From NCBI RefSeq assembly GCF_037975245.1, contig NC_092579.1, positions 16,516,178 to 16,580,177 on the forward strand: DNA of 64,000 bases. The letters run 5' to 3'. Below the pieces are notes generated by a model that did not search any database, was not told the DNA's origin, and was given only the letters and a program-made list of their open reading frames with translations. Positions 8,666-63,623 of the stretch are shown here, one piece after another (position 1 is the stretch's first letter; each line of letters opens with the position of its first letter). The translations under genes were made by a program, and so were the position numbers. The DNA comes from Apostichopus japonicus. Taxonomy: Eukaryota; Echinodermata; Holothuroidea; Aspidochirotida; Stichopodidae.

Positions 8666-9937
8666 TTATTTACTTGTCAGCCTTTCGTCAAAAATCTTCC
8701 AGGAATAGGTCCCTTTCAACCACCCAGAATCTCGTTGCCAACTTGGACCATCGTTTTTTCTAACAGACTGAAAGCGAAACGTATTGAAATCACCTGGAAT
8801 GTATTCGTAATCAGAAGTATTTGCCAAGTTACTAGGGCTTTCTGGTAGCGGTTGCTGACATCTTCCTGGTGTATACGAGACCCTACTTGTCACATCAATT
8901 TTCGGTTTGCCGCTATCCAACTCAATCGGCTGGATGCTGACGGGAGCTTGCTGACGTTTAGCTACCTTCCATAATACTACAGCAAAAATAAACAAAATAA
9001 ACATAAATATGGTAACCACAACGATCATCGCAATGGCCATGATGGATTGCACATTTAGATTCAAAGATGGTATAATCTTCTTGTGAGGATCAACGGTGGT
9101 CCTCTGCGAAATTAGGGATCTACTTAAAAAGGGAGTGGACCAGGCTTCTTCCTCTGTGTAGACATTTTCTGTTGTGACTGATAACGACATGCTGATTGCC
9201 TTTTGTGTGGTTCTGGCTGGATTGGCAACATACGTGGTTGGAAAACAGTTTCCCAATTCTGAGAGAGACAAAGAATGGAGTCTTCTGTTGGACAAGCCCT
9301 CTGGTGTTCGACAAACTGTTTCCTCGTCATTTGTCGAACTCCACGATACGGTGTTTTGATGGTCGAGGAACCAAGCCATAAATCCCCAAAGTGTACAGTC
9401 GCATTTCCACTTGTTTCTGCTTAAGTATATTTCTCCTTGGGAGGAAATAACGTTAGTTAGAGGAAGGAAAACGTCTTCCGGTATCGTGTTCAGTTCATTT
9501 CTTTCAAGATCAAGTACCTTTAGGTGTTGTAAACCGTTGAATGCTCCATTACCTACTCGATTCAAATAGTTATTACTCAAGTTCAAAGTCTCCAGTTTAT
9601 GATCTTCGGTAAAGGTATTATTCGGTAAAACTTGAAGCTTGTTATTCGACAAATCCAGAACCTTTAGTTCAACGAAATTTCGCAAACGAGATGGCATTGA
9701 CCTGAGGTCATTATAACTAAAATGAAGTTCGATAATGGATGTCGAAATTGAGTTCTGGATTTCTCTAAGATACAGTTTACTACAATCTACTGATCTACCG
9801 GAAGTAGAACCGTGAGTTACGTCATTACAATCACAACCGCTCGGACAAGCGGAGGCAATTCCATCGAAGTTGACGATTGAGAAGACGGCGATGCAATGGA
9901 AGATAGAAAGACTAAAACTGGGTATAAATGAAGCCAT
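8666..9937 (-). CDS. Leucine-rich-repeat type I transmembrane protein
   Basis: This single-exon gene encodes 423 aa. The ATG at 9937 is the first in frame, because the upstream in-frame codons are TTG after a TAA. Residues 1-30 form a signal peptide. An LRRNT cysteine cap follows (C31 to C52, with a CPSGCDC-like motif), then about four LxxLxLxxNxL repeats (69-160). An LRRCT cap (about 175-231, NKWKCDC..) closes the LRR domain. There is a Ser/Thr-rich stalk, one membrane helix (about 299-323, ending WKVAK) and a roughly 100-residue cytoplasmic tail with a tyrosine motif DYEYIP. N-glycosylation sequons occur in the LRRs (NNT, NLS). This layout is that of small LRR adhesion or receptor proteins (LRRC/LRRTM-like), which act at the cell surface through protein-protein binding. 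No Ig, FN3 or TIR domain is visible, so it is not a Toll receptor as drawn. The ligand is unknown and orthology is not assigned. Confidence 0.88.
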   Translation of the reverse strand: MASFIPSFSLSIFHCIAVFSIVNFDGIASACPSGCDCNDVTHGSTSGRSVDCSKLYLREIQNSISTSIIELHFSYNDLRSMPSRLRNFVELKVLDLSNNKLQVLPNNTFTEDHKLETLNLSNNYLNRVGNGAFNGLQHLKVLDLERNELNTIPEDVFLPLTNVISSQGEIYLSRNKWKCDCTLWGFMAWFLDHQNTVSWSSTNDEETVCRTPEGLSNRRLHSLSLSELGNCFPTTYVANPARTTQKAISMSLSVTTENVYTEEEAWSTPFLSRSLISQRTTVDPHKKIIPSLNLNVQSIMAIAMIVVVTIFMFILFIFAVVLWKVAKRQQAPVSIQPIELDSGKPKIDVTSRVSYTPGRCQQPLPESPSNLANTSDYEYIPGDFNTFRFQSVRKNDGPSWQRDSGWLKGTYSWKIFDERLTSK

Positions 9938-11480
9938 TGGAAACCATGAGGCGATGCGAGTCAATTATTTAACGGTTCTCCTCAGAAACAGTTGGCAAAC
10001 TGCAATAGAAGCAACGATGAAGAGATGAATTACACACGCCCATATTTTACAAACATTAATTATATTAATTAACTATATTAATTAACTACTGTTTTGCCGA
10101 TATCACTTTCGTTAATCCTATAACTGAGTCAAAGTTTAGAGCTGTTATCAATGATTTGATTTTGAGACTGGAATGATTCAAATTGCAATATTCGTCAATA
10201 CGGCCATACAATTGTTTACTGTACAGATTACAGTGTGCAAGAGTCGAAATATGAAAATTTTATTAGTAAGACAAATAGCAGCCATAAAATATAATCATAC
10301 CATCTTTATGCACAACATTTACTCAGGTATTGAGGCCTCATCATCTGTTTAGTCCAAAAGGAGTTATATTGAGATGTTTAGAATTTCTTTATATTTGAAA
10401 ATCTAAAACTAAAAGTGAAATACAAATGCAGAAAAGATTTGTGTTTTCTTGGACGACGACATATCAGTATAACTTACATTTTTCTAAGATCATCCTCAAA
10501 CATTTCATATAATGTCACAAATATGAGTCCTGGCTTCATGCAAAGAATAGTTCTGTGCAGGGTGTGACAGGGCATTAAATGAAAATACTGTCACGTGAAA
10601 ATGGAAGAAACTGGATCTTATGTAACAATGCATCGATCTTTCAAAGATGATGATAACTTCCGGAATCAGTTTTAGGAGCTAGAAAAAATGGATAACGTTA
10701 ACTACTTATTTCCGTTTTTAGCACATGATATTCATAGCTGTGAGAATGTTGAGCATGAACCAGACTTGGGTATTGAATCCATACTGGTTATTGTATTCTA
10801 TCATAAAGTAGCTTACCTGTGTTGTACTCAGTCGCGTTCTGAAATAGTCTCGGGCTCGTGTTTGTACGTCAAAGGGGATTCCACATATCCACACGGAAGG
10901 TTGGTCAAGATGATCGTACCCATACAGTCGTATTGCTTAGCCACTGCCAAACAATATCCTTAATCGGACCTAAGTGACTTGTTATTTTGCCATAGTATGA
11001 TGTGTAATGCGCAGAACTTAATGTGAGGCAGTAATTCAATTTCGTTGACGTGGGAATATTTTTAATCGTTGTTTCTAACTATAAATCAATATGCGTTACT
11101 GTTTAGATCAGTTAACTGTTATTAAGACAGTTTTGGGAATTGTTGTCAGGTTCCTTCTTTCCTCACCCATTTAATAACCTTTACTTTCGTCTGTATAATA
11201 TTGATCTGGTTTCAATTACTATTCTCAGAAAGCTTCCTTTAAATAGCACTTTCGTTTCTAACATGTTATTGTATTTCTAGCACTTTGTTTTTCCCCTCAT
11301 TAAGAAAAGCAAAGGTATAACAGATGATAGTTTCTATCAAGCGCAGTATCTCTCATGCCCTGTTGACTAAAACAAAAGAAAGAGTGCAGTATATTCCCTA
11401 CCCTGTTGACTTAAAAAAGAGGAACTTCATTTTCGTCTTGATATAGCAACAGTCTTATAAACTGGCCAAAGGGCTGTAAG
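9938..11480. other. 5' flank of the LRR gene, no second gene seen
   Basis: The sequence is AT-rich with an attaattaactatattaat repeat near 10060. The 91-codon frame at 10688-10963 starts with ATG but has no recognisable domain or compositional support. Promoter elements could not be identified with confidence. Confidence 0.45.
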
Positions 11481-16900: not shown

Positions 16901-19671
16901 TCACAGAGTTGTTACATGAAATAATAGTTTTGTTCAAGTTTTGTTGATTCCGTCGCTGGGCAAATCAATTAAGGCAGGCTATCGTTTCTGTGATTATAAA
17001 GGTTCATATTGTATTGGATTGTGTCGTGTCACACAGACCAAGCCACGTGATACATATACTAATTATATCATATCCTAACTGATGTCATTATGATACCGAT
17101 GTGATTAAAATCATGCACTAGGATGCTTTTGACTCTCGAGTTATCAATTGTTTCATCCTGTACCCAAAATGTCTCGAAAATTTAAGGAAAGCTTTTGTGT
17201 TATTTGTGACAAACCTGTCGTCTTAATACATTCTTTTCTGCCGATATCATACGAAATAGAGTGTTATTATCCAGTCCTTTTCCAGTCCTATACCTGAATT
17301 GCAGCTGAAACTCAGCACCGTAGCTTAATTAAGTCTCGAATAATTTTCTGTGCTGTTTTGGTAGTTTTCCTTCTGTAATATTATCAATTTTAACGACATG
17401 TGAGTGTTGTCCTGCAATCACTTTCTTTGAATGTTGTATTTCATGACATCATACGTGTACGTTTGTACATAATATGCAGCTGTTTACATGAATTTCAATA
17501 TGAATTTAACCAATGTTAAAATGTATATTTCAAGCATTTCACGACAGAACATACCTCGATGTGAAAGAAAGGAACTCCTGTATAAGCGTATGCGTGGAAT
17601 TCTTATAATAGCCACAGAAAAAAAAGCACGTTAGTTTGTTTTTCAAAGTTGTGTGTTATATATGAACATCACATATATCAACAACCAAATTTGCAAACTG
17701 CTAGCATTTCGTCGACAATATTTTGCAAGCAGGTCTATGAGATTTCTTTTGCTGTCTATAAGGTCAACTATATATGAGTATAGATTTACGACGTATATAA
17801 ATAGGCATATACATGTTACTTGGTTCCAACAAACAAGAAGGGGGGGAAAAACGTACTGAAGTAACATGAATTCTCATCTAACACACAGGCTTTGGATTCG
17901 GTCTAGCTATTTTGCCATCTTTTGTAAGTCTGCAGTATCACTTTCAACCTACGGAATTACCATTGATCATTTCTGCAATAGGCACATTTGATTACATAGG
18001 AGTAGCCATCTTGCCTCCAGTACTGCAGCTATTTCGTAGCGATTACGGACTGAAAAATTCATTAATTTTACTCGGTGCTCTTGCATTCAACGTAGCAACC
18101 TGCGGCGCGGCCGCGAGAAGGCCGCGCAATGTTAAACAAACTAATAACAAACAAACTAATGCAGTAAGACAACCTGATCAGGAGGAACCAGCAAGTAATA
18201 GAGATACGAAAGGCATCAGAAAACTTTTCTCGAATCTAAGAAGTTTATTTCAGCACAAGAACATAGGTATTCTGCTGATAGCTGAATTTGTCGCATTCTA
18301 TGTCTTTGCTTCTTGGGCCATCTTCTTAGTCTCTCTGGGAAAAACGCAAGGGTTGACCGATGAAGAATCTGTGTTTCTATCGACTGCCGGAGGACTTGGA
18401 GGTTTTATTGGGAAGTGCAGTGCAGCTGTACTTTTCAAGTTTAAACTGGTAAATCCTTTTACTGCAACGCTGATACCATGTTTTACTACGGCAGCTGTAT
18501 TCGTTGTCGCTACAATGTCCACGGATTTTCATATTCTCCTAGCTTTAATTTTCATCAGCGGGTTAACCCAAGGAATAAACAGTTCTTGCGTATTTTCATT
18601 GATGCCGGGTTCGGTCTGTCCATATCACTACAGGCAAATTCTTATTCTTGAATGTTTGTCATGTGGACTCGGAACTCAATTTTCGGGATACGTTTCAGGT
18701 AATGGTTTCCAATTCTTCGTTAATCAAGCCATCTCTCTCGGATGTCTTACTTTATATGTGGTTTTATAATTTTTACCATAACGTCTGTCTGTCGTCGGCT
18801 AGTGCGTCTGTCCCCTTCTGCAGTCATTCCGTCCGTCTCTCTCTTTATGTTTCTATATACGTATTTGCCTATCTGTAAACATGTCTATCAGTCTGTAACA
18901 AGGTCCTACTGACAACTGAGTGGACAGAGTGATCTGACTTAAAGGCATTGAAGACTCGCCCAAAGCAGCGTGCCGCCATCTTTAAAAAGTTAACTTTCCG
19001 TTGCTTGCAAGTTGCTTGCAAGTTTTTCCCTTGTCGCTACAAAATGCAGACAGTAATGAAAAGTGCTACCTTGTTATCTTTAGCTGTGACCTGAGATGTC
19101 CATCGCTGTATCGTTTGTACACTGTGCTGTGGGTATTGACCGCAGCCGTATGTATATCTGACTGTACACTAGTGTCTAATTACCGACTGTAGCAAGCTGA
19201 GTGTGTAATTTCTGCGATCGATGGTGGTGTCTGACACTTCTGTTACATCTCATTCGAAACTAGTTCAGATTACCGGCATTAGACGTTTCTCTTTGCGCGA
19301 GTCTTCACACCCTTTAAGGGATTGTTTGGTTTCTAAATGAGGATATATAGGTTGTCTTATATAGTAACGATTATGAGGCAGACTATATGTCGTATCTTCT
19401 TTCATAACGATTACAAGACATGTGATTACGATTCGGTAGTTGGAACTTGTTGTTAACAAACTACGTGAGAGGATTTTTCAATACGGGCTTAGGAGCCTAA
19501 TATCTTTTTTTTAAAAATCTCTCTCATGCAGGAACAATTCAAGACGTAACGGGATCTACCATCTATGTATATTTGTTCAACGCAATGCTCAACATTTTAT
19601 TAGTCCTGTTATCGATCTGGTGGGCGTGTGATCCAGAACCAAACCTGGAATGTGACAAGTCGTCGCTTTGA
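13604..19671 (+). CDS. SLC16/monocarboxylate-transporter-like protein, copy 1 (4 exons)
   Basis: The exons are 13604-13772, 16609-16752, 17889-18698 and 19532-19671 (TGA). All introns are phase 1 with GT..AG borders, giving 420 aa. The family reading rests on the helix pattern of a major-facilitator protein: about six helices, a charged loop (181-229), then about six more. Local matches to SLC16 include a glycine-rich helix ([13 protein letters not shown]) and the segment at Y121-G142, which sits where SLC16 has its YFxKRRxLAxGxAxxGxxxG signature. Here KRR reads QPT. The usual N-terminal DGGWGW motif is also absent, as the protein begins MEKWILL. The lysine K280 in the predicted eighth helix stands near the family's substrate-linked arginine. 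Members move monocarboxylates or other small organic acids, amino acids or hormones across the plasma membrane. The substrate cannot be told. Tandem partner of the gene at 23578. Confidence 0.85.
13785..13940. repeat. (TA)n microsatellite in intron 1
   Basis: About 155 bp of TA repeat are broken once by tgtatatatatacgtttcat. It starts only about 12 bp after the exon-1 donor of the first transporter gene. The corresponding place in the second gene (23747 onward) has no TA array although the sequence beyond it is conserved, so the array arose after the gene duplication or was lost from the other copy. Confidence 0.95.
16185..16268. repeat. G-rich 15-bp tandem repeat in intron 1
   Basis: The unit ggggtgagccgggtg is repeated about five times. 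Successive GGGG and GGG runs could form a G-quadruplex on the plus strand. It lies some 340 bp upstream of exon 2 of the first transporter gene. Confidence 0.8.
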
Positions 19672-23577: not shown

Positions 23578-26500
23578 ATGGAGAAGTGGATTCTTGTCGG
23601 AACGATTTTCATCAGGAAGCTGTTATTCAGTGGGACCGTAAAAGCAAATGGAGTAATCCTAGCTGACATAGTGAACCAGTTACATACAACCAACTCGCTG
23701 GTCGCCTGGGCCTTTTCACTACAAAATGGAATTGCTTTCTTGATATGTGAGTAATACCCTATAGACTAAAATGAAGATTACATAAATTTAAATGGTCATC
23801 ATTGCATATTAAATATGAAGTTCAATGTGTCCTCCACCATCAGATTCTGTAATATAATATAAGGAACTTGTTGTGTCCCCTTTTTATCATTTGTCATGTT
23901 TTGCTTTTCACTCACTGCTTTTCATCAACTGAAGGGGACAGATGCTCTTTCAGTCCATTAATATTCGAGAGAGGATAGCTCGTAGATGGTTGTGGCGTGG
24001 CTGAATGTAATAATCAATGATTTCATTAAGTATTGAGCTAACTCTTCAGAAATTATAATTGATACGAAAGAATCATGTCACTAAGCAGGACCAAGAACGG
24101 CAGGCTCACATCCAACGAGATTTAAATAGTTGTTACTGGATCACTGGTTCTCTAAAGAAGAGGACACATTTTGCCCCACTCGAGGGACAATGTGTAAAGC
24201 AATTTACGTGATCTAGGGTACTGGAAAGACAAGGGCCGTGTGTGTGGTATATGTTTGTGAGGGGTGTAGGGGAGGGGGTAATAATGGACGGGGAACCGCA
24301 ATGAACCCCAATATTAAATTTCTTCTCTTGATCTGATCTGTTGTGTCAGAGTGTGTTTTTATCACCATCATTCCTTGTATGCTGATATTTTTTTCCTAGT
24401 TGTAAATATCCGTGAACTAGGGATGGGCAGGCGATGAATGTGTGGTTGGGCGTGTCCCAGTCTCATTACGGGTATACTGTGTCTAAACTTGATTTGTTAC
24501 TCCTACCGTAGTATTAAAGTCAAAGTGTTCTATTCTTATTGGTTGTTATACAGTATAAGCCTACAGAAACATTGATTGCAGTGGAATCAACAAAGTTAGT
24601 GGCTTGATAGATTGCTTACTTGGTAGTTTTGTTTTGCCTGCCTGCGGTACAGCAGCACCCAGTGACGACGTTAAGTGACCGTCGCATTTCATTGTCTTTA
24701 GTAAGTAGTGATAGGGTTGCAGGGCACCCCGTCCCACCCTCACCCACCCATCCAGAGGTCGTAGATTGGAAAATTTGAGAAAATGTTTTTAGGATTTTTT
24801 TTAGAATTGTAGGAAGCATAATAGATCGTATAATTAATAGGAGGTAGTTTAGGACGTATTGTAGGAAGCATTTTGCATTTTTTTTTTAAGGAAAAGTGGT
24901 GGGGTTAAAGATGACGCTATAAAGATGACGTTGCATATAATATTTTATTATTATTTATATATAGACCTATATGCCTAGTGGTATAGAGCATATCTTAAAC
25001 TTGTTATGTTGACGATTATTTACATAATTAAGCATTGGGAGAAGTGTTTGGAATTAGCATACTATAACCCCTTTGTGTACATCATGCCGTCTATATACAG
25101 CGTTCATAAATGTCAATATTCCGACACGTACATTTTTGTTTTTGTCTTTCCTCAAACAGCTCCGTTTATCCTGTTTTTACTAAACTACTTCTCCGAGAGA
25201 AAACTCTGCATAATTGGTGGATTATTGAGTGGCCTGGGATACATCTACTGTGGCTTAATGATGACGTCAGTTTATCAACTATTTGTCGGACTGTCAGTTT
25301 CAGGTCGGTATGCCCTCATTTAGTTCTTAACATTTTCAGAATTATTAAAATGCAGGGGAAACACTTTTGCACGTTTTCCCTTTAAATCTTCTGCATTTCT
25401 TGCTATTGAAGACCGTAAAACTATATTAAGCCTGAGGATGGAGCTGCGTGAATTAACGCTGTTTTTACCCGTGCATGTGCGTTCAATGGCGTAAAATGTT
25501 ATAAGAAATTGAGGGATAGAAAACCGATCAGGGGCATTTATCAGATGAATTTTTCGTTTTGGGGATGCTACGGTGGCTCAGATTGGAGATTCGAAATAAC
25601 GACTAGTTTATGACCAAATTGATACTTTCTGTAAACTGCACAAACTCAGTGGTTCATCACAATTTTTGACTGTTCCCGTAGAAAAAGAAAAGAGAAACAG
25701 ATTATACCTGAAGACCTGACAATCTAGGCTACATGAAACGAAAAAAACAAATGATCATTTGGCTGCATGACGCCCTAATACACAGGATCCGACTGAATTA
25801 TTTAGTATACAGTGCTATGCAGCCCAAGTTGCAGAGTGAGGGGAAGAAACATTCTCCTGCCCCCACTTTTCAAAGCAGCATATTTGGCCCACCTGGTTCC
25901 ATCACCTATGCCATTTAATTTTGGATTTAGTTCAATCTGTCCCGGGTTGGACCACAGTCAAACGTAAAGTGCACAACATAAGTGATGGTACAGGTCTACT
26001 CAACAATGTGTTCTCAATGCTCCATCTACATAATTATGATTAACGTCACCCAATGCCCATGGTTGGCACAGGGGTTTGTGCCCCCCCCCCCCCACGCAGA
26101 GTGCAGACTACTAAGTGACATGACTCGTCATCGCACTCCTCCTTACATTGCCCCCCCCCCCGCACTCTTAAACTGTTAGTTTACCTCCTTAACTTTGTTG
26201 GTGTCTCCCCCCCCCCCCCCAACTCAGAATTCCTGGCTATGGGCCTGCGTCATAGCATCACTAATTATCAGTTATTATGAGTTATGCACAGTTTTTTACT
26301 TCTTTCAAATAACTAATAAAGATCAATAATAAATGTTGATCCCCTTAACGTGACGTATTCTCTCACTCATAGGTCTTGGATTCGGTCTAGCTATTTTGCC
26401 ATCTTTCGTTGCACTGCAGTATCACTTTCAACCTACGGATTTACCATTGATCATATCTACAGCAGGCACATTTGATTACATAGGAGTAGCCATCTTGCCT

Positions 26501-28836
26501 CCAACACTGCAGCTGTTTCGAAGCGAATACGGAATGAAAGATTCAATGATTTTACTCGGTGCTCTTGTGCTGAATGTAATGGCTTGCGGCGCAGCCTCGA
26601 GAAAGCCGCGAAAAAGTACCAAACAAACTATCGGAGTGGAAACACCTAACCAGGATGAACAGACGAGTGACAGAGATACAAAGGGAATCAAAAACCAGCT
26701 TTTGAATCTACCTACTTTATTTCAACATAATAACATAGGTATTCTGCTAATAGCTGAATTTGAGGCATACTATGTCTTTGCTTCTTGGGCCATCTTCTTA
26801 GTCTCTCTGGGAAGAACATTAGGGTTGACCGATGAAGAATCTGTGTTTTTATCGACTGCCGGAGGACTTGGGGGTTTTATTGGGAGATGCTTGGCAGTTG
26901 TACTTTTCAAAGTTAAACGTATTAATGCTTTCACTTCTATACTGATACCATGCATCATTACAGGAAGTGTATTCATTACCGCTGTAATGTCTACGAACTT
27001 TTATATTATTTTAGTTTTAATTTTCATCAGCGGGATAACCCAAGGATTAAACAGTTCTAGTGTATTTTCATTGATGCCGGGTATGGTATGTCCATATCAT
27101 TACAGGCAAGTGATGGTTTTTGAGTGCTTGTCATGCGGTCTAGGAATTCAATTTTCGGGATTTATTTCAGGTAAATATCACTTTCTTTAAAAAAGACATC
27201 TTCTTTTCCAAAACTCGTATACAGAACACGTACCGTATGAGTGTGCGTGCGTATGTGCGTACGTGCGTATGTGCGTGTGTACGCGTGCATGTGCGCGTGC
27301 GTGTATGTACGAATACATGCAGTGGATAACTGTATGGACGGATGGGTGTGTATTTGAGAGGATGGATAAATGGTGATGGGTAGCTGGATGGGATGGTTGG
27401 ACGGGTATGCAAGGATAAGTAAATGGATGTGTATGGGTGGATGGGAGGGTAAATGAGTGGATGGATGGGTGTGAGTGTGTGTGTGGGGGTGGGTGGGTGG
27501 AATAATGGAAAGGCGGTTGGGCGTAGAGTGAACAAATTTAAAATAAATATTTTTATACCAGAAAAAGAAAACGTTTAGTGGTTACGATGCCTAAACATAT
27601 TCATAGTATGGCAAAGCCATACATGTTAATAAACATGATCTTGTGTACACCAAAATGAAGAGGATTATCTATTAACTAATGCGGCAACATGTAAAGAAAG
27701 CTATCAGGAATCATTTATCATCGTTGACAGAGCATCAGCCATTTAAGTCACTGATAAGGATTTTACAGTATCGAATTTTTATTCCAATTACTATTTGAAA
27801 TATACTGTAGACACATAGATTGTATGAAAAAAAGGAAATTTTCTGTTACCAATTTTGAGCTTGGAAACCCCTTTAAGATGTGTTATAAGACTGCGAGCTC
27901 TACATGAAATTGGTTACATGCACTGTGAAATATTTTGACAACCTACAAGTCACTTGGTATAAATCACAAACATACTGAGATATTGTCAACAATTCTGTAA
28001 CTGGACGACAAACATTAATCTTGGAGTGACTCGAACTGGGGAACTTATGATTGGAAGGCACCAGCGTTTACCACTGAGCTAACACTCCGTAGCTAATACA
28101 GAGTTTGACATATGTTGTCCTCTTTGATCTCTACCAAGTTGAATCATAGGGCATCTATCTACGAAGTATGACATTGATTCAACTTGTGGTTGACGACATA
28201 TCTTGTTTACAAGCTATTTTTTGGACTATTTCACATTAAGCCCCAAAAACTTAAGTATATTAAGGAGGTCAACGTTGTACTTGCAAAGAGCATATACTTA
28301 ATACGTAGTTACAATCACCATACCAAGTATGAACTAAAATCGAACATACTGTACTGTTGAAGAGATATTGACATTTTAGTAAGTTTATGTTAAGCCCCGC
28401 CCACTCATCAATATGCATGAGATGGAAACCACAAACAGTATAGGGCACATCTACACATCATGGGGCATCTATCTACCAACCATGACAATTATTCAACTTG
28501 TGCTTCTTGTGATATCGTGTTTGCAAGCTGGCCGTCACATACACACACACACAAATCCACACTACATCACGACTGCAAAGGTGACTGGGCCTACGGCATC
28601 GTAACCAACAATGAATTGATGTAAAGTATTAAGAAGCGATTTTCACAACGGGTATTTGGGTTTAAAATATCCCGTTACAGTGTCTCTTTCTCTTTCTTGC
28701 AGGAATGATTCAAGACGTAACGGGATCTACCATATACGTATACTTGTTCAACGCAATGCTCAGTTTTGCGATGGTGCCGTTAGCAATCTGGTGGGCGTGT
28801 GATCCACAACCAAATTTGAAGTGCGACATGTCCTAG
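23578..28836 (+). CDS. SLC16/monocarboxylate-transporter-like protein, copy 2 (4 exons)
   Basis: The exons are 23578-23746, 25160-25303, 26373-27170 and 28703-28836 (TAG), all phase 1, giving 414 aa. Exons 1 and 2 have exactly the lengths of copy 1 (169 and 144 nt). Exon 3 is 12 nt shorter, in the charged central loop. The protein is very similar throughout, including MEKWIL at the start, [13 protein letters not shown] in the helix-4 region and an IWWACDP ending. The KRR of the SLC16 helix-5 signature is again replaced (YHFQPTDLP), and DGGWGW is missing. The predicted helix-8 position that is K280 in copy 1 is Arg (R276) here, as in canonical members. Both copies appear intact, so the pair is probably functional and diverging. 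Expected role: plasma-membrane facilitator for a small organic solute. The substrate is unknown. Confidence 0.86.
26051..26247. mobile_element. Degenerate hAT-like MITE with poly-C runs (intron 2)
   Basis: The left end caatgcccatggttggcac and the reverse complement of the right end (CAGGCCCATAGCCAGGAATT) align with one gap. Flanking sequences are similar (acgtcacc and cgtcatag) but not a clean 8-bp duplication. Three C runs of 12-16 bases lie inside. The assignment is tentative. Confidence 0.35.
27233..27490. repeat. GT/GC microsatellite and GGATG-rich simple repeat
   Basis: A gtgcgtgcgtatgtgcgtac-like run (27233-27310) is followed by degenerate atggatgggt repeats to about 27490, in intron 3 of the second transporter gene. 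The antisense open frame at 27167-27535 is a low-complexity artefact. Confidence 0.85.
28020..28105 (-). mobile_element. tRNA-derived SINE head
   Basis: The minus strand shows an A-box-like TTAGCTCAGTGGTAAACGC and, about 40 bp on, a B-box-like AGTTCGAGTCACTCC, spaced as in RNA polymerase III internal promoters. The acceptor stem does not pair cleanly, so it is a SINE fragment and not a tRNA gene. It sits in intron 3 of the second transporter gene. Confidence 0.6.
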
Positions 28837-43379: not shown

Positions 43380-45200
43380 CTCCTTCCCTGGTCTTGACAA
43401 CATAAATGACCTAATGCTAAAAGATTCCCCTCCGTCGGCCTCCGATATTCATTTCCCATTATTTAACGAACTCCTTAGAATCGGTTATTTCCCAACCCTG
43501 TGGAAATCCGCCAAAATGATTTTAATACAGAAACTAAGTAAAGACACACCAAAATTCAAAACTATCGACCAATTAGTCTCCTCCCAGCCTTAGGTAAGAT
43601 TTTCAAAAGAATTATAGATAGCCGCACCAGAACCCACCTAGAGCAAAATAATCACTTTGCCCGTATCAATCAGGCTAAATCCGCGCACACAAATCTACAA
43701 TAAACCAAACTTTCCGCCTTTCCGAAGAAATTTGCATCGGCTTCATAAAAAAACATGATACCACTGCCCTCTTCCTTGATGCCGAAAAGGCGTTCGACAA
43801 AACTTGGCACAACGGCATAAGAATTTAACTACTTAACTTTAATCTCCCCTCCAATTACACCAGACTTCTTTCCTCTTTCCTTAGTGAGCGCAACACAAAA
43901 AAATACTACAAAAACCAATACTCAAAACCTATTCCACTTCGTGCAGGCACCCCTAAGGGCGCTGTTCTCAGCCCCTCCCCTTCACCCTATTTGTTAATGA
44001 TTTGAACATCCCCCCTCTATCTAAATGCAACTATAGTCAGTACACTGATGACATAGCCATTTGGAGTAGCAGTAAAAATATCTATATGACGGAACTAAAT
44101 ATTAAAAAAGCAATTACACATCTCGAAAATTGGTGCTCAATGTGGAGAACAAAAATAAATCCCTCAAAATCTAACCTAGCCAATTTCTCCATAATAAACT
44201 CAAAATATCATAAACATATTTCCAAAATTAATCTTTTCAACACCTCAATCACTGCTACTCCTAACGCAACCTTCCTCGGTACCATTTTCGATAGCAAATT
44301 ATTGTTTAATCTACATTGTACCAGAACTGCAGGACGCTGCTGGTTCCAACTTCCATTCAAATCCTGTCACACAAATATAACTTCCCTCCGAAAACAATTA
44401 TCCAAATCTATAAATCCAAAGTTAAACCGATTCTCAGTTACGGGAGCATCTCCCTGCTTACCATCTCTATTCCCAATAAACAAATTTTAAACAGAATCCA
44501 CACCACAGCTTATCGACTCGCACTCAAAATCCCTACCTATATTGCTACTTTGTACGTTCTCCGTGCAGGAAACACAAAATCTACTTTCACCCGACTTGGA
44601 GAATTCAACACCAAGTTATACAAAAACAGCCTCGAGAACGACACTTTGATTGAAGACCTCCCCCTGAAATACAAAGTGGCAACAACTCACTACACAAAAA
44701 CCAAACCCTTTCTGTATTCACACTTGTTACTACTTAAAATCTCATTCCATTAAAAAAATCCTTTCCTAAATGGGTCTAGGCCCCGACTCCAAGTATACTT
44801 ATATATACAGAACAAAACAAACAACTCCAACAATGACTGATTGATTAAAACAAAGTAGCAACCACTCCCATACCAAACAATAGAAAACGCAACCACTCCC
44901 TACCCAAACAATAGAAACCACTCCGTCTCCACAATCCTCAGTACTTAGAAATTCCTCTCCTTTAGAAGTCCCTCCCTAATTGGCTCTTCGACTCCGACCT
45001 CGGGTATGATTATGGCTATCCTGTCCAATGTAAATATATAAGACTTCATTTACCAGCAATTCCCTGACTGAACATACACAACTTTTCCAAGGAAAAAAAA
45101 GGAAAAAAAATGTTTATTCTATAAAAACAAACTTATTATCCCCCGTAGGACCTCTCGCCAGGTCGACCAGGGGTTAAACTCCTTTTGATTCGATATCAAC
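43380..45200 (+). pseudogene. LINE ORF2 reverse-transcriptase remnant and 3' tail
   Basis: Broken frames contain YRPISLLPALGKIF near 43560, AEKAFDKTWHNG near 43780, GTPKGAVLSP near 43950 and YTDDIAIW at 44040-44063. These are consecutive reverse-transcriptase motifs of the Jockey/I/CR1 group, with YTDD as the catalytic box (YxDD). A thumb-like open frame follows to 44753. The endonuclease domain expected before 43380 is missing, and ORF1 joins the linker directly. Numerous stops and frameshifts are present. The tail has aacaacaacaaaaac repeats near 45200. Confidence 0.8.
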
Positions 45201-54919: not shown

Positions 54920-57900
54920 TCAAAAAGTTTGTGATCCTGAAAGTTCGAGACAGGCAGGACTATCTGGTAGCTGGATAGAATCACTTTCCGATTCTTCTTC
55001 AACTTTAGTCCTATTTCTAATCCCTTTGGAGGAAACTTCCATCAGCTTGTCTCTTTGGTTTGATGTAGCGTTCAGCACAGCGCCCAGAATAGGAACAAAC
55101 TTTTCTGTCTTCTTCTGCCTTCAGGAGGTTATTGTCTGGTAAGACTTTCCTGATCTGGTCCGAGTTGACCGTACTTGACTTGGACATGAGATGGAGGCTT
55201 TCATGTCCATAATGAGACTAGAGAAGGGATCTGAATCGGCTACAAGGGCTTGGGATTCCAATTTATTTTCTCTGTCTGATGTTTTGTCATCTGCCCAAGT
55301 CTCTTCCAAATTTAAGTCTTCTGGAGGTCTCTCGGGGAGCTGTTCCATGGTGAACACCATGGGTGGTTCTGTCAAAAAAAGAGTATGAAAGAAAATTACT
55401 AGATAGGAATACACAAGCCATGTAGACGAAAGTAGTCTGCATATATAAACTGAAGATAATGCATGATACATTTGAAGACTCAAATGAGTCGACAATAGCC
55501 AATAAATTTAAGGGCGAACACGGATTGCTTTGGGTGATAGGAGGGGGTGGGGGAGTATCACTTTCTTGGTGGGAGGGGGTCAGAGCCACAGACAGAGATG
55601 TAAGAACATTTAATGATTTCCCTAACTTATGTAATGTCAGAAATGTCAATTTTTTTCATTTATAACCCATCTACTAGTAAACTGTCTAGTATTGTTGTAT
55701 CAACTACAGTAGTTACAAAAAAAAGTTTAAAAAAAAGGAATATATTACAACATGAAGGCCAAAAGTATTTGAGCTGCAATAGATTTACAAGCAATATGAC
55801 AATGGAAAGACATGAAGGAAAACTTCACAAAAAGATGACTTTAGGAACAATCCTCAGTTAATTTGTTGTGAACCGTTGAAAAACAGTGCTATCAGGCCAG
55901 GCTGGATTTTTTATGCCACTTTTAATTTTTGAGGGAACGACCATTTAATTTGCCGTGGTTCATTGGTTTAGAGTAAAAAGACTATTTATTCTAATACTTT
56001 AACCATTTAGCTCAGTTCCTCAGATCCAACACAAAATCACAAAAAGAGTTTTACCTGTCTCAAATGACATGTTTACAGTGGTATTACAAATTTGTCAACT
56101 TTTGGACAGATGGTGTTTAATTTTCATTCAATGGGTGCAAGGGTGTTGTTGTTTTAATATCAAGTTAAAGGAACATGCTTGGTTGAGTGAGTTATTAGAA
56201 TTTATGTAAAGCAATGGGTTAACATTAACATTAAAGCCCGTACTAGAGGAGCTGATAATATCATCAAGTTAGCCTTTAAAGGAACATACCGGAGGTTTAG
56301 TATATTTTAACGGTGAATAGCTTGAAACTGGATCAGCAGTGTATGAGTGTAAAGTCTCAAATTAACCTTGTTCTGGTGGGCTACAACATTATTGTGCCTA
56401 AATTCAGCCTACATTTGTCATTTAGGTAGATACTGAGGAAGTGACGGATATGAAGTCATGCTGTCGAGGAAGGAAAGATTTCTTTTACAATTTTATTAAT
56501 TCTTATTCTCATTTCATTATCTGACAATAACACGGATGGAGAAATGTACTACATCTCAAACCTGCCCATAATCAGAAAGCCAAGCCAGAATATTAAAGTT
56601 GAGGGTGGAGTGGAGGCAATAAGTAAGCGTTTACTATTTTGAATACATGTGCTGAAAGTTTCTCCATTTTGTTTATCATTATATTGATGATGATACTAGA
56701 GTTTCTGTAAATGGATAAAAAATGCCCAATACCTTTGCACTTGTGTAGCAAGTCAGTCAATTTCATAGCAAGATTCTCTCGGGTAAATGGAGCAACAGAG
56801 GTCGGAGTGGGTTTAGTGGTACTGGATATGTGTTTTGGTGGGGTTACAGACAAAATCTAAGAGATGGGGAATCTAGGTCCCACCCCTGGCTGCATCCAAA
56901 ACAGCAAAATACTAAGTAACTGGGTGTTTATTTAAAAATAAACTACAGGTCTTTAATTGAGATGGAGAGCAACACACAATAACTGCAATGTCCCTAAATA
57001 TTCCACCAAGACCCGCCCCCCCCCCCCTCTGCCATCCTCCCGGACCAATTCTCTCCTAGTCTCTTTACGTGTAGGGTTTCCAGAAAGATCTGACCAGACC
57101 CGACGTTAATATTCTTACACCCTTTTCAAGATATTCCTCTAAATATATTTATATTTCTGGGATTATAGGAAAAACAAATTCACTGCACAGAACAAAGCCT
57201 TATTTGTCAAAACATACATGACACAATGCACTTACAATTTAAGGGAAACCCCCCCCCCTCCAAAAGAAATAATGCACAGTTGCATATGGCAAAACTAATG
57301 GCAGGTATAATATTGTTGCCAATACACTAGTAACTGCACAGCTACTTTCATGATGGGTAAAAAGAGCAATTTGCTTTGCATGAATACTTATTCAGGTCTA
57401 GGAAAAAGGGAGTAGGCTTGTAATCCTTACAATATTCACCAAATGTTCTTTACACTAAATCTGAGGACGAAGGAAATAAACTTGATGTATTCTTTAACGT
57501 TCGGAAAATTCCACTCTTCTCAACTCTATTGTACTCCATCGCCTTCGGTAAGACTGAATATTACTAAGTGATATTTCATCACGGTTAGGAATACTTCTTT
57601 CCGTGGGTGGGGTGAGGTTGGCGGGACATTAAATTTAACAACTGCACTCATTCAATACAAAAACTTGGTATAAATTCCATATACAGGTAAGTAAGGTAAC
57701 ATCTTCGCTTGCGAAATACCATAAATAGAACATTTTAACCGCATTGAAACATCCCTGATTTATGCTTGAAATTCCTGCTAAACGTGCTCGGGTTTATTTT
57801 GCAGTGAAGTAAATCTTGTACGCAAGACAGACTCATTGGTTAGTTTTTAAATTCATTCCAACTTTCTTTGCACATGACCATATCTGTGACCTGTTCGCAA

Positions 57901-60900
57901 ACAATAGTCCTACAACCCATTGTCTCCAGCATACTGCTACCAATAATTTTATACATTGCGAGCATCATAGCCATCTTGTACTCTCAACGTACCAAACCCA
58001 AATGGAAGAAACGTGAAAATGTACCTGACTCTTCCTCCTTCTGTACGGCTTTATGAGATTGAACAACCCTTTGACCTAGCATCTTGATCTCTGCTACCAG
58101 TCTCTTCACGGAATCCTCTGATTTTATTATGCTGTCCTTCAACGTCTAAGCAGAAAGATGGATTAATAATCAATCACGCAAAGATGGATTAATAATCAAT
58201 CACACAAAGATGGATTAGTAATCAATCACGCAAAGATGCATTAATAATCATCATTGCTTACAGATTTCTCTTATACACCCCACAGGGGAAATTAATTCCA
58301 CCCCACCAATATGGGGAATATTTTCACTTTCATTAAATGATGTGTTAACGTTTTCCTCATAAGGTCGGTTCATACCACTGTCTCTTATGCTATTGTCGCG
58401 TTACAGGAGCAGACATCACTTACTCTCTTCATTGGGATCTGGGTAGGGGTTGAAATTTAAGCCCCAATGAATGAGCTGGAGCTTGCGGATTAAACACCAA
58501 ATGTTTCATCACCAACAGCAGTGGGTAGTTTCACTCAGCATTCTATTAAACATGAAATGTAGTGGAAGCAATGAAACTTGAAATTTTCAACAGGTTACAT
58601 GATGTTGCATGTAAGTCGAAATTGAACCTTGCATCTAATGATATTAAACACCAACAATGTTAGGACAGCCCTTGAACAAAGCAATTAAACTTACATTTAT
58701 CTAATGAAACTATACCCAAATTGACAGTTGAATGATCCATTAATTAATAGTTTTGTCATCTCACCTTCATTCTGTCATGGATTGCTTCATTAGTCATCTT
58801 TATTCCTTGCATACCTTGAAGTTAGCCATCTTTATCAATCTTATCTTTCCTGTTGAGAAAAACAAAAACGAATGAAACTTGCCTTAATAAACTCCCTTGT
58901 TATGGGATCTTAGCATCTATTACGATTAAAACATAAGACAAGATGGCAATCCATGGCATCTCATCTCTTCTATGATGGAATGGATCTACAATGAACTTTA
59001 ACCTTGACCCTTAACAACTGCATAAGTTCTAATTTAAAATTTGGCCCATCATAATCTACATACTTTGTGGTTTAATGACTTATTCCAACATACTGACAAG
59101 CAGAAAGTGGCTACAGTTTCTGGATATTTGACCTTTCACCTATGACATTTATACCAATCACCCAAAATCACATTTAAAGTACATGGTCAGGCACCTACCC
59201 ACCAAGTTTGAACCTGATCGGACTTACAGTCTAGGAGAAGCTTCACGAGACACTCCTTTGCACAATTTAGACCAATTTTAACTCTAACTCAATTCGGCCT
59301 GTTAACTATATACAAGCCTAAACAGCTAAATCTGTCTTGTTTTAAACCTTGTCTCTTCATTCTCTACATATATTGTGGTTTATGCCTTTGTCCAACAAGT
59401 TGGCATGCAGAAAATGGCTAAAAACCAATTTTTAGACTTCTTGACCTTCGACCTCTTTGACGTCATCAATCACGCAGGCATGAGTTAACATGGTCAGGCT
59501 GCCTCAGGCACCCACCCACCAAGCTTGAACTTGACAGGACTTCGGGTATAGGAGGAGTTAGTGACATACTTAATTTTGCTCACTCACTCACAAACACCCA
59601 CACCTACACGCACCCATACATACATATACACAAACACACACGCCATCACCATCGCATAGATTCCTTCGGCCTTCGGCAAGGAATCAATAAATTGTTAAAA
59701 TATCCTACCTGTAGTGAAGGATTTGTGTAATCTCTTCAATTGGTTTTCCCAAGACTCTGTATCAGATTCCATACCACTTTCACAGTCCTCATATGGATCA
59801 ACTAGAACAGAAAAAATTATAAATGCTATGAATGATATCTGTTGCAGAATTAGGCATGAACCCAAGAGGTAATTGAATTGCCACTGGTAGTAGTTTTACT
59901 GAAGTGTAATCTTTTTTGGCAAACAGGTACTGAAAAATCCCAATGTGCTCTTCTCTAGCTATGGTGGTTAGCACAATATAGCTATCTCTAGTTGATCTTA
60001 GCATCATATGACTAATTGTTCAGCATCAATTTAAGATACAGTACGGTACTTTACTGAGTATTTGCTAGTGTGACTACAACTACGACAACTATGAGCAGAA
60101 GGAAAAGGAACAGGTCTATGCAGTCACGCTGGTGAGTATGGATGTATATGTGTATATGTAAGTGACATGCATGTGACGCCACTTGTAAACATAATAACTT
60201 GATACTTAAGGCAAACTTCAGTTGAGCTCATACTAGGTAGGTAGAATACCTTTTTGTGAGTACATGGTCCCTATTGCTTTTGGTTGAGGTCAAAGTTCAT
60301 CTGAGTTAAAAAATATTAACCTTTAATCATCGTAATTTGAGACAACTTCAATTAAATTCATGTTTGTTATGTAGATTAATCATAGTGAGTAAATGGTCCC
60401 TATTGTTTATCTCAAAGGTCAACAGATGTCAAACACTGACAACCTTGTAAACACCTTATCTTGACAAGACACACTTCAATTGAGCTCATACTTATGTATG
60501 TGTATTCTTTCGAGTGTTTATATGACCCATATTGTTTTATATGGAGGTTAACAGAGGTCAAACATAGAAACCTTGTAAACAATATATATCTTGAAGAGGT
60601 AAAATTCAATTGAGCTTATACAGTACTTGGTGGGTAGGTTACCCATAGTGAGAAGGTAGGTAGGTTTTCTTCTGTGCCAGATGGCTCATAAGGTTGGTGC
60701 TTAAACCTGGTTTCCATGATGCAAGTAAAATTAGAGTGAAACACTCCCCCAATCCGTCAATCCGTTGCTAACTAGCCCCTAGCCGAAGCTAGCGCCCATT
60801 TTAGAGATGGGTGGACTGAAGCAAATGGAGTAAAGTGTCTTGCACAAGGATTCAACGTGTTGACTATGCCACCTGTGGGACTCAGACTCACAACCTGTGT

Positions 60901-63623
60901 GTTACGAGTCAAATGCACAAGGAACTAAGCCACCATGACCCAAAGTGAGTGAATTATTTCTATTAGTTTTTTCGGCAGTCAAAGGTCATGTGCGGTCAAC
61001 AGAGGTCCAGCAATGTGTGGGACTGTGTGCGTGCCATAATGCAAAAGTGGACCTTTTCCAGATTAGACTTTGTTTGGGGACCCCTGCATATGTCCCTGGC
61101 TTAAGGATAATAATTTTCCTTACCAGGCAACAATGCTTTTTGCCAAGTTGTTGGACAAACTCTCTTTGGGGTTGACCTGGAAGAACATGCTTGGTCAAGA
61201 TCGCTACTTTCACTATCTTCATCCAGGGTACCTGCAAACCAAAATAAAAGAACCATGTACAATTTAATTAATTGTAAGTATGAAATTAATTCTTTCAACA
61301 AGAAATTGATAGGTAGATATTGATGGTTTGGCATATAAGAATTTCAGGTATCCTTTGTTCCCATATTCAAGAACATCATATTCACTACAAATATTATATT
61401 CTCATAATTAATTTACAACAGTGTGATTTCTTCTGACTAGTAGCCATAATGGTAGACTTACATGGACTGTACTGTATGTTAATCAGTCCATGTACAATAT
61501 TCAGCCCATAGCCATGTACTGTTGGACACCTCACTAAAGTATGTCATTCAACACATGTGTTAACTACCCTTTATTTTTTGCAGTGGCATAGTGAGGGGAG
61601 CAAGGGAACTTTCCCCAAGGCACAGAGTATAGGGTGGCGCCCCCTGCCCCTCGGTGCTGATAATGCTCACTATGCCACTGATCGTACTTGGAGTTTTTTC
61701 ATGCAAGACATAATCAAAATTTGCAATATATTGAAGAAATTACAGCAATTACAACAAAATGAATGTTGTACATATGACACCCAGCATGTAGCCATCCATG
61801 TGTGTGCATACTGTAGTAGGACACTTGTCACTGGTCCATCTTATTCCAGAGAGTTCATATAGTTATGGATTTACCACCAGAGAGAAGACATGTACATGAA
61901 TAAATAGGAGGTGGTATACATGTGATTTCCACTATCTTAAACAATATTTTGTGTCACCTTTACATATAAGTAACATTACCATATGAGTAACATATTTAAT
62001 GAGTAACATTAGGATATTCAAAATTTCCAATACCTCAAAATATTGAAATGTTGAAATTATACAGATCAATGAATGGTAAGTAGGACATTCAGCATACAAC
62101 CATTCATGCATGAGGGTGAGACACTTGTTACTGGTCCATATGTTGAAGACATGCTATTAGCCACTGTGCCCCTGCTTATATTGAACCCTAGTCCATCTTA
62201 TTTCAAGGAATTTATAGTTGAGGGTGCTAAACATTTGCCTAGCTCTCACTGTATCCCTACATGAATTTTGGATACATATTCCATACTACTTACCTCACAG
62301 TGTCCAATGGGCATATGAGTGGAGGGGGGGGGGGCTACTAAGTAGGATAGACCTGCATTGGAAACATGTGTAACTAGGTTACATCAAAGTTCAAACACAA
62401 GCTTTAAAATGCCTCAGAACTCAATTTTTTTTATAGGTAAATATTATAAGTACTTGCCCAATGTTAAATGAATGGTGGTTATGACATTCAGCACACAGCC
62501 AAGTACAGTAACACCAAGTTTGTCACCGGACCAGTATTGGGGTACACTTCAATCCAAACATCACAAAAGACATTTTTTGTATATATGTACGCAGTTGTCA
62601 AACTCATTATCAATCACTACATGAAATATCAAACCTTTCTTACCTTTCAAGGTTTTGTGTGTTGTTTCAGTGGATGACTACTGTCACAGGAGCTTGTTTC
62701 AGATTCTGTAACATTTTCACAACCTTCCTCATCTGGTGGAGATGAAAGATATGTACAAAAGATCACGAAGAATTTGTAGCTACAGAGTATACAGTTCATA
62801 ATTATTTAAGAATGAAACAGATCCAGCAGTATTAAAGCTAATGGGGCCTTACTTTACTACTGTAATGTAAGCTAGGCATTTTGGACTAGTCACTGACCAT
62901 AACTGTGTGTTATGGTTTATCAAAAGTGGAGGATATTTAACCGATCGTCAGCCAAATCAGCAGCATTTGTAGCAATTTGCTTCTGTACCTGTAATATATA
63001 TTGTCATATTTTCCGAGAGTATTTTTAACTCATAGAGACAGTATTTTGACTATTTATTTCTTCAATGTTGTTTACATTTTAGACTGTTGAACAGTGGCTT
63101 AATAAATTGGACAGATCATTAATTGTTTTGTTTAAGTGTATTTTCAATTAAATAAAATACTGTTTTTTTGCAAGCTTTGGGCGCTGTTATTAGACCTCCT
63201 AATCAAAGGTTTATTCTATACTAATTAGGTTATATTAATTGTTGCTGTTGGATTAACAAAATCCTTTTGTGTCAATGATTTGTGTTTCAAGAGTTTTAAG
63301 TTTTGTTCTACTTGAACCTTTTATATATTTACAAGTTTATTAAATAATTACTACATGTAATAATTTATGATTTATGGTGTTGCTTCATATTTCTTATTTG
63401 TGTCGATGGCCACCAATACTAACGAATGGGTGATCATGATCGGGTAAATAAGTAAGGTTCCTCCTTATCTGACCGACAATCGGGTAAATACCCACAACGT
63501 TTACTAAAACCTCAACAACACATTCACTGCTGTTTGCACGATTCTTACCCACTTTTACTAGTTTGTGCATTAAGTTTTTCAAGTACTTAATTGTGCGTAG
63601 CACATCTCCATCATGGACAATAT
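54920..63623 (-). CDS. Unrecognised multi-exon gene: acidic Ser/Glu-rich and coiled-coil protein (partial)
   Basis: The exons, in minus order, are 63623-63549 (tentative), 61231-61124, 59801-59709, 58849-58815, 58145-58025, 56856-56733, 55368-55175 (or to a TGA at 55123-55121) and 55114-54920 (TGA 54922-54920). Phases join as 1-1, 1-1, 1-1, 1-0, 0-1, then a misfit, then 0-1, 1-0 and 0-stop. Each exon has consensus AG and GT borders. The first two firm exons share a pattern (LDEDSESSDLDQACSS, YEDCESGMESDTESWENQ). Then come KIRLIKMANFK and a heptad-like SIIKSEDSVKRLVAEIKML segment, a Pro/Thr stretch, LAMKLTDLLHKCK, an acidic PPEDLNLEETWADDK region and a tail with VEEESESDS. No domain is recognised and the function is unknown. 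The start lies beyond the window or is undetermined. One exon is probably missing between 58025 and 56856. Confidence 0.55.
58149..58252. repeat. 31-bp tandem repeat, about 3.5 units
   Basis: The unit gcaaagatggattaataatc followed by aatcac is repeated beside the acceptor of exon 58145-58025 of the minus-strand gene. It therefore occupies the intron end that should carry branch point and pyrimidine tract. On the minus strand it still gives a usable ctttctgcttag. Confidence 0.85.
58980..59690 (+). repeat. Two tandem units of an interspersed repeat, about 355 bp each
   Basis: 58980-59335 and 59336-59690 share ctacatact/atatattgtggttta, acatggtcaggc, cacccaccaagcttgaac and aggagaag/aggaggagtt blocks. 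The second ends with a CA-rich microsatellite and agattccttcggcc..aaggaatcaat, a GATTCCTT/AAGGAATC hairpin like that at 54350-54395. Confidence 0.65.
60200..60665. repeat. Diverged tandem repeat of about 130 bp
   Basis: Blocks recur three to four times: acttcaattgagctcatac, tagtgagtaaatggtcccta, gaggtcaaacat and accttgtaaaca. They lie in an intron of the minus-strand gene. Confidence 0.7.
60715..60945 (-). mobile_element. tRNA-derived SINE with conserved-type body
   Basis: The minus strand begins GGTGGCTTAGTTCCTTG (A-box-like), has TGAGTCTGAGTCCCAC (B-box-like), then a body with TTGTGCAAGACACTTTACTC and CAGTCCACCCATCTCTAAAA. The body resembles widespread metazoan SINE core sequences. About 230 bp, intronic. 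Confidence 0.6.
61496..62560. repeat. Dispersed repeat of about 70 bp, four degenerate copies
   Basis: Copies near 61496, 61780, 62084 and 62480 share gacattcagca.a.agcca, atg..agta and gacacttgt.actggtccat in the same order. They are spaced about 300-400 bp, so a larger decayed tandem unit is possible. Confidence 0.55.
61581..61680. mobile_element. 100-bp hAT-like MITE
   Basis: Perfect 15-bp inverted ends are cagtggcatagtgag and ctcactatgccactg. No 8-bp target duplication is seen (attttttg against atcgtact). The ends resemble the foldback element terminus CAGTGGCGTAGG. Confidence 0.75.
62644..62732 (-). pseudogene. Decayed acidic exon upstream in the minus-strand gene
   Basis: The exon has a good acceptor (tctccaccag) and donor (gtaaga) and reads DEEGCENVTESETSSCDSS like the acidic exons at 61231 and 59801. 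Its frame hits a TGA before the donor, and its length (89 nt) breaks the 1-1 phase rule of its siblings. It is probably a skipped or dead duplicate exon, or an alternative terminal exon. Confidence 0.45.

Follow-up and report, generated by a model that had tools for sequence, protein, structure and literature searches.

Abraxas is a known DNA-repair scaffold gene whose coiled coil helps to assemble a complex with BRCC36, and the C-terminal end of human Abraxas 1 is S-P-T-F. The two described proteins closest to the locus studied here are Abraxas 2 or ABRO1 (FAM175B, KIAA0157), the scaffold of BRISC, and Abraxas 1 (FAM175A, CCDC98), the scaffold of BRCA1-A. In PMC7692841, twin phosphoserines and a terminal phenylalanine of Abraxas 1 (S404, S406 and F409) bind the BRCT domain of BRCA1, and N164 of ABRO1 is named as the E-loop-activating asparagine. 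At the level of genome organization, the human subtelomeric duplicons, which are segmental duplications with gene passengers, offer a further parallel to the multi-copy blocks described here near contig ends.

We analysed a window of 64,000 nucleotides of the sea cucumber Apostichopus japonicus (the whole stretch, C19:16516178-16580177), in which all exons of the locus lie on the minus strand. Positions are those of the window, and other copies are named by contig and megabase; for example, C5:5.24 Mb stands for C5:5242000-5251999 (L031, minus strand). The preliminary description had taken the locus for a single, undescribed-looking gene, with acidic exons expanding in front of a coiled coil. 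Instead, the locus is a piece of a known gene that has been duplicated and has for the most part decayed, and the whole is very probably best explained as a decayed multi-copy Abraxas 3' fragment joined to an unrelated acidic block.

The downstream part (58849-54920) is, judged by its relatives, a partial Abraxas/FAM175 copy, with coiled-coil exons and a C-terminal tail but without the MPN exons. It begins with e4 (58765-58849, phase 2 to 0), in which the coiled coil begins (KDxIDKDG.LQGMQGIKMTNEAIHDRMK) and which was aligned to Abraxas 2, followed by the coiled-coil exon e5 (57993-58145, phase 0 to 0, open) and the Abraxas-derived exon e6 (56733-56856, phase 0 to 1, open). The last exon of the block, e7 (54920-55368), has an AG acceptor at 55368 and encodes the tail, ending L-S-G-S-Q-T-F-stop. 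Comparison of the copies indicated that e4 extends to 58765 and e5 to 57993 in the relatives. The donor of e5 was placed by phase at 57992 rather than at 58024 as previously proposed, since an end at 58025 (phase 1) clashes with e6 (phase 0).

Because e4 and e5 of the window matched only weakly on their own (Abraxas 2 as top match in the same register, E=0.082), the identification of Abraxas rests on the relatives. A six-copy profile also placed Abraxas 2 at the top (0.06). When e5, e6 and part of the window e4 were searched against PDB, the best E was 1.3 and Abraxas was absent from the matches up to E=10; e7 alone had no PDB match, the joined window exons found nothing approaching the cut-off in Pfam, and scans for Rfam families and tRNAs found none. 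At e4 and e5, the window is 90% identical to C14:0.86 Mb. Relatives without the acidic exons carry an extra exon, eA, which splices in phase (2-2) into e4. With eA, e4 and e5 joined, C14:0.86 Mb reached E=9.1e-10 against Abraxas 2 and 0.017-0.1 against Abraxas 1, while a control with the same letters reversed found no Abraxas (best E 0.034).

The most parent-like Abraxas copy, which was fetched in part, is that at C5:5.24 Mb and includes MPN exons. They were located with a query of Abraxas MPN regions: exon B reached E=1.4e-4, whereas exon A, which is collinear with it, reached only E=4.7 on its own. The borders of both are good, and their phases (2-0 and 0-2) lead into eA. The in-phase product of A and B (MPN-MPN), eA, e4 and e5, 211 residues in all, matched Abraxas 2 (E=1.3e-22), Abraxas 1 (1.5e-12), FAM175B in 5cw3_B (2e-5) and the Pfam family PF21125 MPN_2A_DUB_like (2.2e-18, 66.9 bits, where the cut-off is 27). 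Its residues 1-196 are collinear with positions 68-257 of the Abraxas 2 chain, in the order MPN, linker and coiled coil. In contrast, the window copy has only e4-e7, which are broken, and neither MPN exons nor eA were found in it. The search for an MPN exon found none in the window or 50 kb beyond, and divergent short exons could escape this query. In the motif A-I-x-N-L-G of eA, the asparagine falls opposite residue 164 of chain 6r8f_B, taken here as the N164 of PMC7692841. It is conserved in all three eA-bearing rows of the alignment; in the window copy, no exon carrying it was found.

Compared with Abraxas 2, the tail of the family ends like Abraxas 1 instead. Of the 10 copies having e7, 6 read L-S-G-S-Q-T-F or L-S-G-S-Q-A-F directly before a stop, with the same C-terminal S-x-S-x-x-F spacing as in Abraxas 1, and the end of the window e7 shows this spacing although its frame is broken upstream. 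On the other hand, the coiled coil matched Abraxas 1 less well, with a lower score than to Abraxas 2, and P in the human S-P-T-F end is replaced by Q in the family.

The window copy is clearly damaged. In the frame of the relatives, e4 has a nonsense TAA at 58824-58822. In comparison with C14:0.86 Mb, e7 has lost one base at one site and two bases at another, with the frame shifted between them, and an in-frame TGA at 55123-55121 lies in this interval. Readthrough or selenocysteine at the TGA was considered and dropped, as the codon lies between two frameshifting deletions when relatives are compared. Owing to the TAA in e4 and the frameshifts and TGA in e7, no continuous open frame runs over the spliced exons of the window, and the notion of an intact copy has to be abandoned. 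It appears that the window copy makes no working protein.

Decay was also widespread among the relatives. Among 11 judgeable copies, none had e4-e7 all present and open with AG/GT at every border. Of three further loci fetched in part, the comparison of defects took in a portion of L004, with L005 and L008 (3.1 kb each) outside it, and C14:7.59 Mb is without the Abraxas block. The window and the neighbouring C19 copy have GT as the donor of e6, whereas the 10 others in the comparison have a different dinucleotide there, including the parent-like C5:5.24 Mb, where a non-canonical donor stands at the expected place. In C14:0.86, C5:5.24 and C20:4.56 Mb, e4-e7 are open and the lack of GT at this donor is the sole defect of e4-e7. 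At least one stop occurred in 45 of the 54 places matched by the whole e7 query, the window's own among them, and none in the remaining 9; in e5, a stop was present in only 2 of 74 places. The pN/pS ratios ranged from 0.52 to 0.91 over the 11 pairs involving the window copy. Pooling gave 0.62 over the 66 pairs that 12 copies form for e4-e7, 0.11 over the 10 pairs that 5 copies form for eA, and 0.73 over the 21 pairs that 7 copies form for e2 and e3 together; as pairs have sequences in common, they are not independent. The pooled values for e4-e7 and eA indicate that some lineage was under constraint.

This constraint bears on the possibility that expression of some MPN-less copies yields short proteins resembling Abraxas and serving as decoys, which would bind BRCC36 or BRCA1-type BRCT domains with no activation of the enzyme. 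The low ratio of eA and the retention of the tail motif would agree with such a role, as would the open e4-e7 of C14:0.86 and C20:4.56 Mb, whose fetched stretches showed no MPN exon, and of the MPN-bearing C5:5.24 Mb. However, these are the three copies without GT at the e6 donor, the ratio between C14:0.86 and C20:4.56 Mb is 1.01, most whole-query e7 places contain stops, and the constraint could predate the copying and have acted on the parent. On sequence grounds we consider decoys highly improbable. It is even less probable that some MPN-less fragments are transcribed as natural decoys for BRCC36 or BRCA1-type BRCT domains, through which an amplified scaffold tail might tune break repair in this animal.

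Upstream of the Abraxas-derived exons lies the acidic block (61231-59709 plus 62732-62644). It consists of e2 (61124-61231, acidic/basic, phase 1-1, open in the window), e3 (59709-59801, acidic, phase 1-1, open) and d (62644-62732), with e1 (63549-63623) as a possible 5' exon of uncertain coding status, which is kept in the neighbouring copy and broken in the C21 copy. The acidic exons had no match in PDB or Pfam. As the preliminary description had proposed, d is a decayed sibling: it is a duplicate of e3 that contains a stop and is one base shorter than its C21 relative, which is open with phase 1-1. When d of C21 was compared with e3 of C14:7.59 Mb, 0 of 5000 protein shuffles reached the score, likewise 0 of 5000 with the window e3; at the DNA level, none of 2000 single-base shuffles reached the score against e3. 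The suggestion that e2 and e3 are duplicates of each other found no such support: the score of e2 against e3 within C14:7.59 Mb was reached by 1023 of 5000 protein and 233 of 2000 DNA shuffles, and that of the same e2 against the window e3 by 2345 of 5000 protein shuffles. Duplication of symmetric 1-1 acidic exons thus holds for one pair, d and e3, of which one copy is decayed. Among 7 fetched copies of e3, 5 were complete and open, with lengths of 93, 96, 96, 105 and 105 bases that always differ by whole codons, and 2 (C5:6.57 and C21:1.69 Mb) were broken. A putative first exon upstream of the window (extended coordinates 66398-66276) was rejected, for its likeness to a second place runs about 220 bases past its ends with frame-breaking indels.

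The two blocks meet at about 59616-59640, where there is a change in which copies share DNA. Sharing with the acidic-only copy C14:7.59 Mb stops at 59622, and sharing with the eA-e4 intron of the eA-carrying copies starts at 59639-59616. The phases also clash here, e3 ending in phase 1 and e4 of the relatives beginning in phase 2; together with the end formerly given to e5, two junctions of the gene as first drawn were out of phase, although its exons had been thought to keep phase. Between e3 and e4, 6 copies were scanned for an open exon of phase 1 to 2 whose acceptor and donor both score above 3, and none was found; exons as weak as e6 (2.6/1.1) would escape at this threshold. Lowering it to 0 yielded no candidate in the window and 1-4 in each of the other 5 copies, none common to 3 copies. 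Because the phases clash, no bridge was found and the shared DNA switches at this point, the apparent gene is a junction of two blocks. The acidic exons are a separate block that is not spliced in phase to the Abraxas block by any exon found.

Several elements of the single-gene description stood up to this comparison. The AG/GT-bordered open stretches at 63623-63549, 61231-61124, 59801-59709, 58145-58025 and 56856-56733 are all present, the exons are derived from spliced coding sequence, and there is a coiled coil. A single functional, undescribed gene would also be consistent with the location on one strand, with AG/GT at most exon borders and with the occurrence of both blocks together at 10 of 24 e3 loci, which implies that the pairing itself was copied. 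However, the unbridged phase clash and the stops in e4 and e7 argue against it, e3 occurs alone at the other 14 of these loci, and the coiled-coil part belongs to a described family. We regard it as largely refuted and as the least probable of the readings considered. Removing this false new gene illustrates that two adjoining copied exon blocks can mimic one gene.

We searched 671.58 Mb of the genome in 35 contigs and found 74 places for e5, 25 for e3 and, of 233 candidates for e7, 150 that were scored. Merging of matches within 15 kb gave 126 loci on 13 contigs, a lower bound, in which one merged cluster contains two copies. The Abraxas block was present at 112 of these, e3 at 24 and both at 10. 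By class, and again as lower bounds, 60 loci had e5 and e7, 38 e7 only, 14 e3 only, 8 all of e3, e5 and e7, 4 e5 only, 1 e3 and e7, and 1 e3 and e5. The preliminary description had named matches only to repeats as a ground for giving it up, and since both blocks are multi-copy in the genome, it is partly refuted by its own standard. It is unusual to find pieces of one DNA-repair scaffold gene at 112 loci or more in one animal genome, and automated gene prediction could mistake copies of this kind for genes and report spurious proteins as Abraxas-like or "uncharacterised coiled-coil". Among the papers listed by the one literature collection searched, none was seen to describe this family.

Over shared stretches longer than 1 kb, the fetched copies were about 81-96% identical to one another, introns included, and they are therefore duplicates at the DNA level rather than retrocopies. 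Near the ends of C11, C14, C19, C20, C21 and C4, copies of the Abraxas fragment recur every ~170-300 kb, in arrays that span C20:0.27-1.24 Mb, C19:31.2-32.4 Mb, C14:0.15-0.87 Mb, C11:0.12-0.57 Mb, C21:0.19-0.37 Mb and C4:29.28-29.50 Mb. The arrays mostly keep one orientation per end. Of the 20 e7 places in them that the whole query matched, 18 have exactly two TAA, the positions of which were compared only for C20:0.27 and C20:0.46 Mb. A further dense cluster lies in mid-contig at C12:14.84-17.33 Mb, with 12 loci spaced ~100-520 kb apart, 9 of them on the plus strand. Unlike the human subtelomeric duplicons, the family combines an array spacing of ~170-300 kb with many interior copies, and the ends here are contig ends, telomeric or not.

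A mobile element that captured pieces of genes might also have spread the blocks in place of segmental duplication. Such an element would account for the dispersal over 13 contigs; retroelement-like frames were seen by eye nearby, there is a repeat at the junction, and 14 of the other 24 e3 places match the window e3 at 97% identity. However, no common ends were found in the fetched copies, and their shared stretches stop at differing points. C20:0.27 Mb has most of the fetched 30 kb in common with C20:0.46 Mb and also, though with gaps, with C22:12.0 Mb, and the contig-end arrays, in both their spacing and their paired TAA, resemble segmental duplication. A mobile element is therefore unlikely, and we infer that the blocks spread by segmental duplication and rearrangement.

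According to the preferred explanation, two unrelated multi-copy exon blocks stand head to tail. The downstream block is the 3' part of Abraxas/FAM175, a coiled coil and then a BRCA1-BRCT-type S-x-S-x-x-F tail, which was probably cut inside the eA-e4 intron, multiplied many times as genomic DNA with its introns, and then decayed in the window copy. The upstream acidic block (e3, the decayed d and e2) was probably joined to it by a rearrangement at about 59640-59616. A tree of 12 copies, rooted on C5:5.24 Mb by choice, left the order of the fusion copies unresolved (supports of 35-65).

Upstream of the window copy, C19 carries tandem rhodopsin-type GPCR genes at extended coordinates 72669-74505, 99425-101327 and 107156-109302 (L009-L013); the first was identified by Pfam 7tm_1 (E=1.2e-32) and the others were recognised by translation. 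A second acidic and Abraxas copy is located at about 89584-98703 in the same coordinates, so that the C19 segment looks tandemly duplicated. Elsewhere in the window, Pfam identified a long open LRR frame on the minus strand (8666-9964) and, on the plus strand, two similar MFS transporter exons (17882-18769 and 26354-27190) and a reverse-transcriptase fragment (43957-44490).
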